From a virus, in the IMG/VR virus record IMGVR_UViG_3300032070_000613, positions 1 to 64,000 of that record: a DNA stretch of 64,000 bases, one strand, 5' to 3'. Below the pieces are notes generated by a model. That model was not told the DNA's origin. It made no database searches and saw nothing but the letters and a program-made list of their open reading frames with translations. The position numbers and the translations under genes are program-made. Positions 2,882 to 11,611 of the stretch are shown one piece after another (positions within the stretch are counted from its first letter, which is position 1; every line of letters starts with the position of its first letter).

Positions 2882-3436
2882 ATGATCGGTGAATCAAGCG
2901 GACTAGCACCTGATAGGGGTTTAAATATCCTCTATCGCGTGACAATGAATACGTTGATGAATCTGACTGAGACTGACCTGACACAAGCAAATTACAATAA
3001 TGGTCATGCTGAATCAGTGATAAATACACGTCTCAGCCCCAATACACCTAAAGGTCTCCTCGCGGGCTCGATCGTGTCAGCGAGTGCGACTGCAGGCGCA
3101 GTAGAAAAATGCGTCGGTGGTGGACGTCCTGGTAACTATCCTCTCGGTATCGTGATTAATAATGCCGTGGGATATCCTTTCGAATCCAGCTCCGGCGTAG
3201 CGAGTGGAAAGTGCCCATATCTGCATGGAGCAGGCACAGTGTTTTCGACGGATCTTTATGAGACATTTAACACCAGCAGTGTGGCTCTAGCGTATGCAGC
3301 TGGAGATTCTTTGTATTGTTCCCGTAACGGTCTTTTGGAAAATTCCGACGAAACTTCTAATCTCATAGTGGTCGGTATCGTTTTGATCGCTCCGTCGACG
3401 AGTGATCCGTTCATGGTCGTACAGTTGAGAATCTAA
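2882..3436 (+). CDS. Small head protein, copy 1 (decoration-like, unproven)
   Basis: A 184-residue protein behind a GGAGG ribosome site. It is a clear paralogue of the next gene (3507-4064): both begin MIGE-SGLAPDRGLNILYRV and share near-identical central (VGYPFESSSGVASGK) and C-terminal (IVLIAPSTSDPFMVVQ) segments. It is Ser/Gly/Ala-rich and beta-like, without membrane segments. Location between scaffold and major capsid genes suggests an abundant head component such as a decoration or fibre protein. Whether both copies are in the virion cannot be told from sequence. Confidence 0.55.
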   Translation: MIGESSGLAPDRGLNILYRVTMNTLMNLTETDLTQANYNNGHAESVINTRLSPNTPKGLLAGSIVSASATAGAVEKCVGGGRPGNYPLGIVINNAVGYPFESSSGVASGKCPYLHGAGTVFSTDLYETFNTSSVALAYAAGDSLYCSRNGLLENSDETSNLIVVGIVLIAPSTSDPFMVVQLRI

Positions 3437-3506: not shown

Positions 3507-4064
3507 ATGATTGGTGAAGCAAGCGGACTAGCCCCCGATAGAGGCCTAAACATCCTCTACAGAGTCTCGATGAACACGCTCATGAATCTGACCGAGACTG
3601 ATCTGACTCAGGCGAATTTCACAAATGGTAACGCCGAGACAATTACAAATACCCGTCTCAGCGCCAACACGCCTAAAGGTCTTCTCGCAGGTTCAGTCGT
3701 GAAGTGCAGCACTACTGCCGGTGCAGTTACAAAGGCAATCGGTGCCGCCAGTGAAGGTGCCCTTGGTATTGTGATTAACAATGCTGTGGGATATCCTTTT
3801 GAATCCAGTTCCGGTGTAGCAAGCGGAAAGTGCCCGTATCTGCATGGTTCTGGTACAGTGTTTTCGACGGATCTTTATGAGACGTTCCTTCAGGATGGCT
3901 CGACGGCTTTGGCATGGGCTGCTGGAGATGCTGTCTGTGCGTCACGTAATGGTCTTCTTACGAGATACGCCGTGAATCAGACCTCTGCCAATGAAGTCAT
4001 TGGTATCGTTTTGATCGCTCCGTCGACGAGTGATCCGTTCATGGTAGTGCAGATGAGAATCTAA
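3507..4064 (+). CDS. Small head protein, copy 2 (decoration-like, unproven)
   Basis: 185-residue paralogue of the gene at 2882-3436, with an AGGAGG ribosome site. The differences are concentrated in two loops (about residues 65-90 and 130-155). Elsewhere the DNA is unusually similar: a 44-bp stretch near the 3' end is identical in both copies, including silent positions, which points to recent duplication or gene conversion. It lies 73 bp before the major capsid gene. Same tentative function as copy 1. Confidence 0.55.
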   Translation: MIGEASGLAPDRGLNILYRVSMNTLMNLTETDLTQANFTNGNAETITNTRLSANTPKGLLAGSVVKCSTTAGAVTKAIGAASEGALGIVINNAVGYPFESSSGVASGKCPYLHGSGTVFSTDLYETFLQDGSTALAWAAGDAVCASRNGLLTRYAVNQTSANEVIGIVLIAPSTSDPFMVVQMRI

Positions 4065-4137: not shown

Positions 4138-5019
4138 ATGGAAGGTAACATCAGCAATGAACTGAAACAGCAGATCATTGGTGAGTACATCAAGACTGCT
4201 GCGGGTCGTCAGAAGCTGGCGGCCTCAATGGTGCAGCCTCTACGTCTGCGTAGGGACTACACGTCAGTCGCACGTAAGGCGTTTCTCGTAGAACAGCTGC
4301 CCGATGGCGCACTGCCTATCTACGATAAAGACCCGAACGTGACGGCTTTCGTGGTCGGTGAAGAAGGCGAAAACATTCTCGCGATTACCAAACCGCGCCG
4401 TGTGATTTTCCCGTTGTTCGAAATTGCGTCGAACCCGGAAATTCCATTGACACAGGTCAAAGAGCGTCGGTTCGACCTCATTGAGAGGGCACAGGATCTG
4501 GCGAAAGCTCAGATACAGGCTGCGGAAGATGGGCGTGCTTTTGATGTGATGGACGCGGTGTCCCAGAATGGTTTCGATAATCTCGGTACAGCCTATACAA
4601 ATGCTCAGGTGAATGCGGTCGCTCCTCTGACACCCCCGAACCTGATCGATGCATTTGCTCGTATTGAGACGCACGACCTGAGGGCTGCTCGCGTGTTCAT
4701 GAATGCGCTTGATTTCGCTGACCTGAGGAAGTGGGGTCGTGATGTGTTCGATATCGAGGCACAGGCACAGATTCTGAAGACCGGTCTGATGGGTTCTGTG
4801 TGGGGTGCTCAGATCATCGTCTCTCGTAAAGTCACTCCGGGTTATGCGTATGTGTGTGCAGAGCCGGAGTTCTTCGGGAGGATCCCAGTCCGTACCGAGT
4901 TGACGGTGCTCAGTGCGGATGATCCAAAGGCGAGACGCATAGGGTTTAGCGTCTTCGAAAATTTGGGGATAGGTTGTCATAACCCACTTGCTATTACTCG
5001 TGTTAAGATTGCTCGCTAA
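4138..5019 (+). CDS. Major capsid protein (HK97 fold)
   Basis: 293-residue protein with a strong AGGAGG ribosome site. The pattern fits phage major capsid proteins: an N-terminal helical arm, a region rich in hydrophobic strands and prolines (about 60-115), a long helix with RAQDLAKAQIQAAEDGRAFD (about 118-140), a helix-rich domain with FMNALDFADLRKWGRD, and a C-terminal beta region with FGRIPVRTELTVL and GIGCHNPLAITRV. Together with the upstream protease and scaffold-like gene, and the terminator right behind it, this is the best candidate for the shell subunit. It is short for the fold, which leaves room for separate decoration proteins such as those just upstream. Confidence 0.75.
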   Translation: MEGNISNELKQQIIGEYIKTAAGRQKLAASMVQPLRLRRDYTSVARKAFLVEQLPDGALPIYDKDPNVTAFVVGEEGENILAITKPRRVIFPLFEIASNPEIPLTQVKERRFDLIERAQDLAKAQIQAAEDGRAFDVMDAVSQNGFDNLGTAYTNAQVNAVAPLTPPNLIDAFARIETHDLRAARVFMNALDFADLRKWGRDVFDIEAQAQILKTGLMGSVWGAQIIVSRKVTPGYAYVCAEPEFFGRIPVRTELTVLSADDPKARRIGFSVFENLGIGCHNPLAITRVKIAR

Positions 5020-5047
5020 TGTAGAGTGTTAATAGCAATTGTAAAGT

Positions 5048-5080
5048 AAAAAAGGTCCTAATAATTTTAGGGCCTTTTTT
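5048..5080 (+). terminator. Intrinsic terminator after the major capsid gene
   Basis: AAAAAAGGTCCTA pairs with TAGGGCCTTTTTT (one wobble) around a short AT loop; the 3' arm is itself the U tract. It closes the head operon and isolates the mobile module that follows. Confidence 0.8.
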
Positions 5081-5137
5081 ATTTGTTTTTCTGATCCAAA
5101 TGCAGTATATTTAGAATATTAAGTTTTCGAAGTGTTA

Positions 5138-5430
5138 ACGACCCTTAAATAAGGGTCGTGGTGAGTAAAGGTATTATAAGCCAACTTTTGAAAACCACGA
5201 TTAAAATGGAGACTAGAGTGGTCAAGATCATCACCTGTAATTCCGAAAGGGATTTAAAAGATCTCGTAAGAGATGGTGATGGTCGTTTGAAGACAACTGA
5301 ACCTATTGCCCGTGGCAGGGTAAGAGATATAGAGGGTGCTTCCCTAGCTCTCTCTCCCTCTATAGGTCAGTCTCGAAGGGAGCAATTACCTGAATTATCT
5401 GCAAAGGTTATTCAGAGAAAGGTACCAGTA
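5138..5430 (+). ncRNA. Candidate omegaRNA / HEARO-type guide RNA scaffold
   Basis: The 290 bases upstream of the IsrB-like gene are dense in inverted repeats. ACGACCCTTA / TAAGGGTCGT form a hairpin at 5138-5159. GATCATCACC (5226-5235) pairs with GGTGATGGTC (5275-5284, one wobble) and encloses two hairpins with GNRA tetraloops: AATTCC-GAAA-GGGATT and ATCTC-GTAA-GAGAT. TATAGAGGG / CCCTCTATA form another near 5328-5363, and GGTACCA / TGGTGCC spans the start codon of the nuclease gene. IscB and IsrB genes are known to be preceded by such an RNA (HEARO), whose guide lies at its 5' end, which would here be just upstream of about 5138. A reading frame passes through this stretch but its translation does not resemble the family. 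Boundaries are approximate. Confidence 0.65.
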
Positions 5431-7086
5431 ATGGTGCCAGTTTTATCTGTAGAGGGGAAACCGCTTATGCCGTGTCATCCGGCAAGGGCGCGTGAACTTA
5501 TTAAAAAGAAAGGAGCAAAAGAGAGATGGTATCGAGGTATTTATGCGATTCAGCTTATTCACAAGAATGGGAGTTTTTTACAGAATTCAGTATGTGGTAT
5601 TGATTCAGGATTTTATAGGGAAGCATTTACGATACAATCTGTTGATCATACTTATTTAAATGTACTTTCTGATGCTGTATGCTGGGTAAGTACAAGAGTT
5701 GAAAATAGACGAAACTCTCGTAAATCTCGTAGAGGAAGAAATCTTCCCTGTCGAAAAAGTAGGAGTAATCGGATGAATAAAAAGTCATGGTTAGCTCCTT
5801 CGATTAAAAGCAGGTGGGATATTAAATTAAGAATTATTGATTTTTTAAAGAAGTTATATCCTATAACAACTTATGTTATAGAGGATATAAATGCGAAAAA
5901 TAAAAAGAATTGTAGGAGATGGAATAGGGTTTTTTCTCCGTTACAGACAGGTAAAAATTGGTTTTATTATAGAGTAGAAAAAACAGGTGAATTGATACTA
6001 AAAAAAGGGTACGAAACATATATTCGTAGGGATTTATTTGGTTTTAAAAAGTTAAAGGATAAGTTTTCTGAATCTTTTTATAGTCATAATATTGATTCTT
6101 GGGTATTAGCAAGTTTTGTGACGGGGAAAAGAGATTTAGATATGACTAAGGTGTTTAGGATGGTTCCTCTTAAATTTCATAGAAGAGTACTTCATAATTT
6201 AAGCCCTGCAAAAGGCGGCTATAGGAAAAAATTTGGTGGAACTATGTCTTTAGGATTTAAGAGGGGGTCGGTTATATATCATAAGGAGTTAGGCTATGCT
6301 TATATAGGGGGTACGGCAGACGGGAGAGTTACGATACATAATATAGTGACTGGAAATATTCTTACATCACGGGCATTTCCTGCTGATTGTAAATTTATAT
6401 ACTTTAATAATTGGAGGACGGTATTTATTGATGAGTGTGGAAATTTTATTGGTAAGAGACATCGTGATATTTTTTTGAAAATAGAATACTGTACTCCTGA
6501 AATAATAGAAAAGAAAAGACAGACAAATTTAAAACGTTATGGTGTAGAAAAGTATACTAATCGGGAGCAAGCGAAAAAGACTTCTTTAGAGAGATATGGA
6601 GTAGAGTACACATGTGCTGTCCCGGAAATTATAGAGAAAAGGGTAGCTACTCTTATGGAAAGGTATGGTAGGGTTTTTAATGTAGATGAGCCGCATAATA
6701 AGTTTCATTTGGAAAATAAAGAAAAATTCATACAGGATTATGAATCCGGGTTGATTTTAGGAGATCTGGCTATTAAATATAAAATTAGCGAACCCACATT
6801 AAGTCGTATTATTAAAGATTTGGGATTGAGTCGTACTGTAGTAAAAGCAAAATCTTATGTAATAGATACTCCTTCAGAAGCCACATCAGATTATTTGAAA
6901 GCATGCCTTGAAAATAATAAAATCCTTTCTTTTTATGAGTATGGTAAGATAAAGGGGCAACAGTATTGTACTAAGATGAAAAGATGGTTTAATAAAGGTA
7001 GACTCTACAATAATTTACTTGAAGAGTTAAAGTCAGTAGCTCTATGCGCTGAAGAGCACGAGACTTTTTTAAACAAGTTAAGATAA
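5431..7086 (+). CDS. IsrB/IscB-like RuvC protein with homing-type C-terminal extension
   Basis: Predicted RNA-guided nickase-like protein (551 residues from ATG 5431). The N-terminal PLMP/RRXRR domain is clear (GKPLMPCHPARAREL, residues 9-23). RuvC-I is GIDSG (Asp58), an Arg-rich bridge helix spans 93-114, RuvC-II is VIEDIN (Glu151) and RuvC-III is SHNIDSWVLA (His219, Asp222). Only about 70 residues separate RuvC-II and -III, so there is no HNH domain, as in IsrB. Residues about 250-340 match the family's C-terminal domain (GGT-SLGFKRG). The remaining about 205 residues are unusual: tandem NLKRYGVE-type repeats (about 350-415) and a helix-turn-helix (about 440-470), both typical of phage homing endonucleases. 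The frame is open upstream to a GTG at 5158, but those 91 residues overlap the RNA and look non-coding; AAAGG lies 8 nt before ATG 5431. Confidence 0.75.
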   Translation: MVPVLSVEGKPLMPCHPARARELIKKKGAKERWYRGIYAIQLIHKNGSFLQNSVCGIDSGFYREAFTIQSVDHTYLNVLSDAVCWVSTRVENRRNSRKSRRGRNLPCRKSRSNRMNKKSWLAPSIKSRWDIKLRIIDFLKKLYPITTYVIEDINAKNKKNCRRWNRVFSPLQTGKNWFYYRVEKTGELILKKGYETYIRRDLFGFKKLKDKFSESFYSHNIDSWVLASFVTGKRDLDMTKVFRMVPLKFHRRVLHNLSPAKGGYRKKFGGTMSLGFKRGSVIYHKELGYAYIGGTADGRVTIHNIVTGNILTSRAFPADCKFIYFNNWRTVFIDECGNFIGKRHRDIFLKIEYCTPEIIEKKRQTNLKRYGVEKYTNREQAKKTSLERYGVEYTCAVPEIIEKRVATLMERYGRVFNVDEPHNKFHLENKEKFIQDYESGLILGDLAIKYKISEPTLSRIIKDLGLSRTVVKAKSYVIDTPSEATSDYLKACLENNKILSFYEYGKIKGQQYCTKMKRWFNKGRLYNNLLEELKSVALCAEEHETFLNKLR

Positions 7087-7088
7087 CT

Positions 7089-8099
7089 ATGTCAGCTTTT
7101 GAAATAAAAACCACGGATAAAGACACTATACTCTATAACAAATATGGTGTTTTTTCTAAAAATGAGCTATTTCAGCAGTTGAAGGAAGGAATGCTTACAG
7201 AGAAAGAACTAGGGAGTATATATGATCTGAGCGCATTTCAAATGAGGTTGGTTTTAAAATTTTTGAGTATAGATTATAGATGCCCTTTGAATGAAACGAG
7301 AGTACACGATCCTATTGTTTCTTCATCGATGCATCAAGTCTTGGTAGGCACGTTACTTGGTGATAGCTATATGAGGCATCCTAAAGAGTTTGGGATAAGC
7401 CATAGTATCAATCAGATGGACTATTTGTATCACGTCGCTGAGCAGTTGGGGGATTTTGTTTCTACAGTAGAGTACAAAGAGTTAACATTTGGAGTAGCTT
7501 TAGATTTTTGGACGCACAGACATAGTGTTTTTGTATCGTATTTCGATAGATTTTATTCTAGGGGAAAAGAAAAAAAGTATATTACCGAGGGATCAGCATA
7601 CGATTTAGAACCTGAAGGCTTGGCTTATTGGTTTATGGATGATGGAAAGTTTGGTGATTATGGTATGAATTTATGCGTTGGAAATATTTCTGACGAGGAA
7701 GGTGCCCTATTAGTGAATTTATTATACAATAAATTTGGTATTGTATCCACTTTTCAGATACACGATGCTGCACGAGGTTATCACAATCTTTATATAAAAG
7801 CAGAGAGTAGGAGTCGTTTTATTGAAATTATTGAGCCCTATATCATTCCGTCTATGCGATATAAACTGACTGGAGAAAAATATCCTAAGTTATACCAAAA
7901 AAGTGATATAGCAGAAAGGCATATATCATATTGTAAAAAAGTAGGTAGGACTGTTAGATTTTCTGGGGACAGAACAGTGGAGAGTTCTATAAGATCTCAT
8001 TCAGCTATTTTCAGTAAAAAAGAGTTGTATGTGCAGCAGGTTAAGGAAAAAGTTAGGAATCGATGTTTAATATCTCATAAGGATATGAGAGTATGCTAG
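7089..8099 (+). CDS. LAGLIDADG homing endonuclease
   Basis: 336-residue protein starting 2 nt after the IsrB-like gene, so probably translated with it. Two LAGLIDADG motifs are visible: VLVGTLLGDSY (Asp92) and GLAYWFMDDGKF (Asp184/185). Each ends a core domain of about 90 residues, so this is a single-chain two-domain enzyme that would cut a long asymmetric DNA site. A helix-turn-helix-like segment (about 36-60) precedes the first motif. It is free-standing, not in an intron or intein. By eye the DNA is AT-rich, like the IsrB-like gene and unlike the genes on either side, suggesting both arrived together. Catalytic residues look intact. Confidence 0.8.
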   Translation: MSAFEIKTTDKDTILYNKYGVFSKNELFQQLKEGMLTEKELGSIYDLSAFQMRLVLKFLSIDYRCPLNETRVHDPIVSSSMHQVLVGTLLGDSYMRHPKEFGISHSINQMDYLYHVAEQLGDFVSTVEYKELTFGVALDFWTHRHSVFVSYFDRFYSRGKEKKYITEGSAYDLEPEGLAYWFMDDGKFGDYGMNLCVGNISDEEGALLVNLLYNKFGIVSTFQIHDAARGYHNLYIKAESRSRFIEIIEPYIIPSMRYKLTGEKYPKLYQKSDIAERHISYCKKVGRTVRFSGDRTVESSIRSHSAIFSKKELYVQQVKEKVRNRCLISHKDMRVC

Positions 8100-10327: not shown

Positions 10328-11611
10328 ATGATAACAATAGATAATATGAATATTTTGGCACATAAGTATGGCGGTAAGTGCTTATCCAGTGCCTATTCAG
10401 ATTAGAATACTAAACTCAAATGGGAATGTAAAAATGGCCATGTATGGGAAGCTTGTTCTAAAGGAATAAGGGATGGTCATTGGTGCCCAAAATGTGCTGG
10501 CAGGGGTTTTACAATTAAAGATATGAATGACTTTGCTAAGTCAAAGGGTGGAAAATGTCTTTCGTTAGAATATATCGGTAGTAGAAAATCTCTTAAATGG
10601 GAGTGTTTAAAAGGACATACATGGACTTCCTCTTATTATTGGGCTCAACGAACGTGGTGTGCTGAATGTAATCAAATAGAGAAAAATAAGAGCACTTTAG
10701 AAGAAATGAGGAATATTGCGAGAAAAAGGCATGGAAAATGCCTTTCTGAAGAATATCATCCGAATAAGAAATTAAAATGGGAGTGTAAACAGGGCCATAT
10801 ATGGGAGGCGGTTGGTTTTAAAATAAAAAGGGGGAATTGGTGCGCGATTTGTTCAGGGAAACAAAAATTCTCTGTTAAGTATTTACAGCAAACGGCTAAA
10901 AATAGAGGGGGCAGAGTTGTTTCGGACAGATATGTAGATGCACACAGTAAAATTCTATGGGAGTGTGCTTATGGCCATAGATGGGAGGCGAGATTATGTG
11001 ACATTAAGAACCATAAAAGTTGGTGTCCTTTTTGTACCGGGAAGAAAACTATAGAACATATGCAAAAATGGGCTGACAAATATAAAGGGGAATGCCTATC
11101 TGAAAAGTACGTCAATTCAAGAACTGAACTTAAATGGAAATGTAAAATTGGTCATATTTTTTGGAAAACTCCCCAAATTGTTCAAAGGGGCGGTTTTTGT
11201 CCCGAATGCTCCTCTTTCGAAAGTGAACAATTTTGTCGCGAAATTTTTGAGGAATTATTTGGCCAAGAATTTCCTAAAAAATGGCCAAAATGGTTAAAGA
11301 GATATGATACGGGGGTGACATTGCAACTTGATGGTTATTGTGAAAATCTTAAAATAGCTTTTGAGCATAATGGCCTCCAGCACTATAAAATGTGTGATAG
11401 ATTTCATATGTCTAAGAAAGACTTATTAGATGTTAGGTATAGAGATGATGTAAAAATACAAAGGTGTAAAGAGAAAGGGATATTCCTTATTATTATTCCT
11501 CAGCTGGGTGTGAAGATTCACGGGTTATGCGTTACTCGGGATAATTTAAGGATATTTATTCTTGATGAGTTAAGAAGAATGAGCTATAATTTTCCGATCA
11601 AAGGGAAGTAG
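10328..11611 (+). pseudogene. EDxHD-type zinc-finger homing endonuclease with in-frame amber codon
   Basis: The frame from ATG 10328 encodes five tandem treble-clef-like units of the form KWECK-GH-W ... WC-x-x-C, then a nuclease domain (LDGY, AFEHNG, LQHY) of the EDxHD/VSR-like homing family. An in-frame TAG at 10403-10405 interrupts the first unit, just where aligned units carry a variable residue before LKWEC. Downstream the frame is intact, and an internal ATG at 10523 (weak ribosome site) could give a 362-residue protein with four units and the whole nuclease. Other genes here end in TAG, so general amber recoding is unlikely. It sits between the IbrA-like and IbrB-like genes, a typical homing insertion. 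Confidence 0.7.

Follow-up and report, generated by a model that had tools for sequence, protein, structure and literature searches.

Most of what is known of OMEGA nucleases concerns their service to insertion sequences. The best described relative of the system considered here is IsrB of Desulfovirgula thermocuniculi (DtIsrB, PDB 8dmb), a bacterial protein of about 350 amino acids with a PLMP domain, a split RuvC domain, a bridge helix and no HNH domain, which nicks the non-target strand beside an NTGA target-adjacent motif (TAM) and is served by an upstream omegaRNA of about 300 nt with a 5′ guide (PMC9581776). Free-standing homing endonucleases of phages form a second group that bears comparison; the cut lies hundreds to thousands of bp away from the endonuclease gene, MobA and MobE of T4-like phages nick, and T4 segD adjoins the capsid gene (PMC2988022). 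Here, we describe an element at approximately 5118–7086 in the first 64 kb (64,000 nt; hereafter, the window) of the 141,095-bp record IMGVR_UViG_3300032070_000613 (G000), which is an IMG/VR virus record, in keeping with the viral carrier proposed by an earlier reading of the sequence (the original prediction). We consider that this is probably an IsrB-type OMEGA element that acts as an RNA-guided, free-standing (i.e. intergenic) homing element in large phages. The features on which the argument turns are listed below, one to a line.

4138–5019, plus strand: gene for the major capsid protein and the target proposed here (match to phrog_2522, major head protein, 6.7e-53)
4952–4965, minus strand: the phage's own allele of the putative target, reading antisense to capsid codons V-F-E-N-L (11/14 bases match the guide)
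5118–5133, plus strand: putative guide region, with the conserved 14-mer TAAGTTTTCGAAGT at 5120–5133, antisense of capsid F-E-N-L
5134–5430, plus strand: omegaRNA scaffold with a covarying core at 5134–5373 (covariation in 34 relatives; fold z −6.1)
5431–7086, plus strand: IsrB–homing tail fusion protein of 551 amino acids (PF14239, DtIsrB sequence and fold match, tree)
6454–7083, plus strand: homing-endonuclease-type DNA-binding tail with DUF7487 repeats, a helix-turn-helix and a common C-terminal block (Pfam, PHROGs)

The open reading frame (ORF) runs from the ATG at 5431 to the stop at 7086, and its IsrB part comprises residues 1 to approximately 335 (5431 to about 6440). Pfam places the RRXRR/PLMP domain PF14239 at residues 2–154 (3.6e-29), and the best solved relative is DtIsrB, which aligns over residues 2–294 (1.6e-32, or 2.3e-115 with a family profile) without any insertion; there is no Pfam HNH match in the 551-residue protein, and no catalytic domain besides RuvC was recognised in the fusion. 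The four RuvC residues, which DtIsrB also has (PMC9581776), are invariant wherever they are aligned in relatives (Asp58 and Glu151, each 34/34; His219 and Asp222, each 33/33), as are Arg97, Arg100 and Arg101 of the bridge helix in those relatives with the residue aligned. An AlphaFold2 model has a mean predicted local distance difference test score of 76.8, with values of approximately 90 across most of residues 1–335 that fall off around the bridge helix and in the tail; 8dmb is the top PDB fold match of this model (E 1.1e-22; template modelling score 0.82 on the target). A scan of IMG/VR with the single full-length protein gave no match, and an alignment query was needed. In a tree of 75 RRXRR proteins, the split between IscB and IsrB was judged by branch support and protein length rather than by HNH pattern labels, which are unreliable for some rows of about 340 amino acids. 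The window protein lies on the IsrB side, with a Shimodaira–Hasegawa approximate likelihood ratio test value of 100 on both sides of the split; its nearest kin are the proteins of the related loci L012 and L013, and two IscBs of the same phage fall on the IscB side. With 551 residues, the protein is larger than the approximately 350 expected of an IsrB; this size is only a descriptive character, the IsrB part is normal-sized and the remainder is a fused tail, and the IsrB part is therefore still placed in the family. Size apart, the nuclease part has the testable sequence features of IsrB, and residues 1 to about 335 can firmly be predicted to be a complete IsrB nickase. The PLMP domain, the RuvC residues, the Arg-rich bridge helix and the absence of HNH that the original prediction had read from the sequence all hold, the placing in a tree that it called for falls as it expected, and its assignment to an OMEGA system of the IsrB type is one on which sequence, fold, tree and covariation agree.

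Residues from about 342 to 551 have no equivalent in DtIsrB, which lacks a tail. They include DUF7487 at residues 379–444 (Pfam, 3.6e-10), for which a further scan gave 3.7e-11, and match the homing endonuclease family phrog_3339 (PHROGs, 2e-7). The L012 and L013 proteins share this tail, in the form of some 210–290 extra amino acids in which, as in the window, DUF7487 and a helix-turn-helix are accompanied by the common C-terminal block; the LR745208 protein ends at residue ~333. In L200, a similar tail is encoded by a separate overlapping ORF, for which reason this copy may be broken. HNH_repeat, which is associated with homing endonucleases, was seen in L013 and L200 below the Pfam cut-off. 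From its domains, the protein is taken to be an IsrB nickase fused to a homing-endonuclease-type DNA-binding tail. The original prediction had followed the protein as far as residue 345, which covered the IsrB part and missed the tail; it also passed over the hotspot, the sister IscB/HEARO loci and the relation between guide and capsid gene that are described below.

Evidence for a homing habit comes also from the place that the element occupies. The original prediction correctly noted the adjoining capsid gene. Eighty relatives were gathered by similarity of the capsid protein, and, of the 58 distinct loci in which the sequence extends 2 kb or more 3′ of the capsid gene, 43 have a LAGLIDADG, IsrB or TnpB ORF within 4 kb 3′ of that gene. 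IsrB is found at this spot in the window, L012/L190, L013, L038/L188, L200 and L040; because the L040 protein groups with the subclade of DtIsrB and archaeal proteins, IsrB entered the spot at least twice. The interval between the capsid gene and isrB contains two LAGLIDADG genes in L012 and none in L013. A scan of the ten ORFs around the element showed no Y1 transposase (TnpA). In being intergenic, adjoining a conserved essential gene and standing in a nuclease hotspot, isrB resembles the gene of a free-standing homing endonuclease, and the element appears to work like one. Two further features belong to the hotspot.

5044–5084, plus strand: terminator-like hairpin 3′ of the capsid gene (consensus scan)
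7089–8099, plus strand: LAGLIDADG homing endonuclease gene directly 3′ of isrB (PF03161, 3.5e-27; a homologue lies beside isrB in L012)

Other sequences were noted at the post-capsid spot. L150:8110-9222 encodes a TnpB (OrfB_IS605 with a Cas12f1-like TNB domain), followed by a LAGLIDADG–Mom fusion, and in L144, L153, L197 and L201 the first large ORF 3′ of the capsid gene encodes a large protein with both LAGLIDADG and DNA methylase (N6_N4_Mtase) domains, a single chain thus joining nuclease and modification. Just 3′ of the capsid gene in L146 (L146:4340-4432) there are two exact 31-nt repeats, 62 nt apart, that resemble the beginning of an array of CRISPR or TIGR type, and at this point the contig stops.

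A folded RNA upstream of the ATG at 5431 had been proposed, and the region does fold strongly (−102.5 kcal/mol; z = −6.1 against dinucleotide shuffles). In an alignment of 34 sequences (A4), 91.6% of cells can form a structure that comprises 35 pairs, compared to 63.6% on shuffling and 31–42% when the pairing partners are slid by 1–3 columns, and compensatory changes occur at 33 of the 35 pairs. The common scaffold start, GTCAAC-ACCCC...GGGGCTTG, can be aligned across phage, cyanobacterial, Chloroflexi and archaeal relatives and lies at 5134 in the window. On this pattern of covariation, bases 5134–5373 can firmly be regarded as a genuine omegaRNA scaffold. The stem of about 10 bp with two GNRA loops (about 5225–5279) to which attention had been drawn does form part of the minimum-free-energy fold; because most relatives lack this stretch, it is considered to be a peripheral insertion rather than part of the conserved core. 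A match to the HEARO covariance model of Rfam (RF02033) had also been expected, and none was obtained in 4900–5600 up to E 10. The test was not a valid one: the same model misses the DtIsrB locus of D. thermocuniculi (L098), whose omegaRNA is in the solved structure, and its failure here therefore does not speak against an omegaRNA.

The reading frame is open upstream of the ATG, back to a GTG at 5158. From 5218 on, which is the part of the upstream frame that the comparison of coding signatures covered, the third-codon-position excess is absent (0.33/0.28/0.34, versus 0.35/0.27/0.54 in the RuvC part), and so the upstream frame seems to evolve as RNA and not as protein. An N-terminal extension made by translating the omegaRNA, from a start at GTG 5158 or at 5218, is disfavoured by the lack of a coding signature, despite the open frame. 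The frame through the omegaRNA into isrB (5158–5430) is also open in L012, L013, L038 and L200, and a GGAG-GTG start-like site stands ahead of it. As for transcription, L012 has a promoter (TTGACT-17-TATAAT) with 11 of the 12 consensus bases, which ends 8 nt 5′ of the 14-mer; from this position, the 5′ end of the RNA would fall 1–2 nt before the 14-mer. The candidate in the window is as follows.

5106–5111, plus strand: candidate −10 box, TATATT, for transcription of the omegaRNA (read from the sequence; weak; not called by the window scan)

Since the scaffold starts at 5134, the guide is expected to be approximately 5118–5133, in accordance with the original prediction that it would be encoded just upstream of about 5138. 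The 14-mer that precedes the scaffold is kept in five loci while the flanks diverge, and reads TAAGTTTTCGAAGT in the window, TAAGTTTTCGAAGC in L012 and L038, CAAGTTTTCGAAGC in L013 and TAAATTTTCGAAAC in L200. Read in antisense, all four distinct guides give F-E-N-L, after two bases of a Cys-like codon. FENL is present in 62 of 72 capsid proteins, and the proposed target codons (C)-F-E-N-L are situated some 50–65 nt before the capsid stop. The guides differ in the third base of the Leu, Asn and Cys codons, together with one non-synonymous change at the last base (window), and the same conserved capsid tetrapeptide is obtained for all four in 1.75e-4 of column permutations of the guide alignment. 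The capsid site at 4952–4965 is the only other place in the 141-kb record within one mismatch of the guide family YAARTTTTCGAARY, and across 879 kb of the relatives' loci the 13-mer family is confined to the guides and the antisense capsid site; in whole large-phage records, hits to this family are scattered and no more frequent than those of a reversed-pattern control. L259 and L263 have capsid alleles that match the L012 guide perfectly (14/14), and the ORFs that come next at these loci showed neither an RRXRR nor a LAGLIDADG motif; as the search pattern was built from the guides, these two loci show only that perfect targets exist. The carriers' own capsid sites have three mismatches to their own guide, or five in L013. 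A scan for further copies of the guide with the scaffold start returned only the known elements and chance hits in unrelated sequence.

Several observations weigh against the capsid gene as target. The plain mismatch statistics are modest (P 0.004–0.16), the guides are homologous and count as little more than one guide, and the palindromic core of all four also reads K-F-S-K in the sense frame. The capsid match ends at 14 nt, compared to the 20-nt guide that was tested, with its NTGA TAM, for DtIsrB, a protein with no known target in a neighbouring gene (PMC9581776). A clear TAM is absent at the carriers' own capsid alleles and at all those fetched, and no more than about 22 of 80 have NTGA after the site. 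The L040 guide, compared by eye, is without a capsid match, and approximately ten other phage IsrB loci have the ordinary layout, in which the guide is the end of the gene where the locus sits. Because the mismatch counts are modest and the guides homologous, we treat the capsid gene as the probable, rather than the demonstrated, target of the 14-nt guide. That donors are protected by loss of the NTGA TAM (Ser AGY instead of TCA before the site) is only a suggestion, and one that L200 does not fit.

Ordinary OMEGA behaviour, in which the guide is simply the flank, remains the main rival. The guide would then be the left flank of an old insertion site, passed on by inheritance, and its resemblance to capsid codons would be fortuitous. 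This is what is seen in LR745208 and about ten other phage loci, where the 3′ end of the gene upstream serves as the guide, and a capsid match of just 14 nt with modest plain statistics would accord with it. We nevertheless think it unlikely, given that the 14-mer is conserved despite diverged flanks and differing neighbours, that most differences between the guides are synonymous with respect to the capsid (P 1.75e-4) and that the guide sequence was not found as an empty site 3′ of the capsid gene in relatives lacking the element. Alternatively, the complex might be an immobile regulator that binds its own capsid gene through the partly matched guide and tunes late expression. The match of 11/14 at the own capsid site suits such a role; intact and invariant RuvC catalytic residues, the better match of the guide to element-free phages than to the home capsid gene, and a tail and a hotspot that point to homing make it very improbable. 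Least credible of all is that the 14-mer is no guide and belongs to the folded RNA, where it would pair with part of the scaffold (for instance, UUUGAAGAC near 5285–5295), for although the minimum-free-energy fold of the window does pair it, the segment is unpaired in the L012 and L038 folds, and in relatives the common start GTCAAC lies 3′ of the 14-mer, with the bases upstream otherwise unrelated.

If the element is an RNA-guided homing element, its operation may be pictured as follows. The omegaRNA would be transcribed from its own promoter, making the guide its 5′ end; the complex of IsrB and omegaRNA would nick the capsid gene of a co-infecting related phage, with the tail supplying extra protein–DNA contacts; and repair would copy the capsid end and the element from the donor, as for the nicking phage endonucleases MobE and I-HmuI. 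The donor would be spared because its own capsid site is mismatched to the guide. A more specific proposal, to which we would give even chances, is that a homing endonuclease has exchanged its protein-only catalytic domain for an RNA-guided IsrB nickase and become a chimera. It would have two layers of recognition, namely a guide of 14–16 nt to conserved capsid codons and the DUF7487/helix-turn-helix tail, and would serve as both gene drive and weapon between co-infecting large phages, with a guide that has evolved along synonymous target positions and is no longer copied from the flank.

Parallels for parts of this scheme are available. MobA and MobE are likewise intergenic beside a conserved essential gene, have a proposed cut site at a distance, possess DNA-binding modules and nick rather than make a double-strand break (which is here a prediction); they differ in being HNH nucleases in which the protein alone picks the target, with no guide RNA (PMC2988022). 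In the IS200/IS605 TnpB gene drive, an RNA-guided nuclease favours element-carrying copies, as is proposed here, but the nuclease is of another family, has a 3′ guide that is the flank and serves a transposon (PMC11870625); no transposase gene was recognised beside isrB. The intron endonuclease of PhiPA3 is reported to interfere, as a phage nuclease, with a co-infecting relative, in that case in competition between jumbo phages, and interference of this kind is also proposed here; it differs in being an intron-encoded protein endonuclease without a guide RNA (PMC11620839).

The same phage has further OMEGA loci outside the window. HEARO RNAs above the Rfam threshold are present at G000:C1:100284-100796 (L009) and 125844-126356 (L010), each with a full IscB gene (RuvC and HNH); each RNA lies at the 3′ end of a gene, whose stop codon it supplies or overlaps. 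A third HEARO RNA, at G000:C1:137454-137639 (L011), is solo: all that follows it is a truncated iscB start. The 11–12 nt before its scaffold (AACCCTACAAC) are shared with the IscB locus at 125 kb, and for this reason it may be a trans-acting guide. Within the window, an endonuclease-like ORF with repeated Cys-rich units lies a few genes downstream of the element (10523–11611; phrog_559 HNH endonuclease, 4.1e-38). Upstream of the capsid gene, there are tandem, closely similar ORFs of about 185 amino acids (2882–3436 and 3507–4064), the first of which has no family match; they probably encode head decoration proteins that arose by duplication.

IsrB, omegaRNA, homing endonucleases and the TnpB gene drive are already known (PMC9581776, PMC2988022, PMC11870625). 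The combination of IsrB, omegaRNA, homing-type tail and capsid guide was not found in the openly licensed literature, a search that covered subscription journals and preprints thinly and is not proof of absence. The element joins a guide-RNA nickase and a protein DNA-binding tail in one compact, natural fusion, and it offers a testable answer to the question of why IsrB only nicks, homing by nicks being already known in phages. If the proposed reading is true, OMEGA nucleases would have a second way of life, namely RNA-guided homing in viruses without a transposase; the locus would provide a natural case of a guide evolving toward conserved codons, and an RNA-programmed selfish gene would be spreading between viruses.
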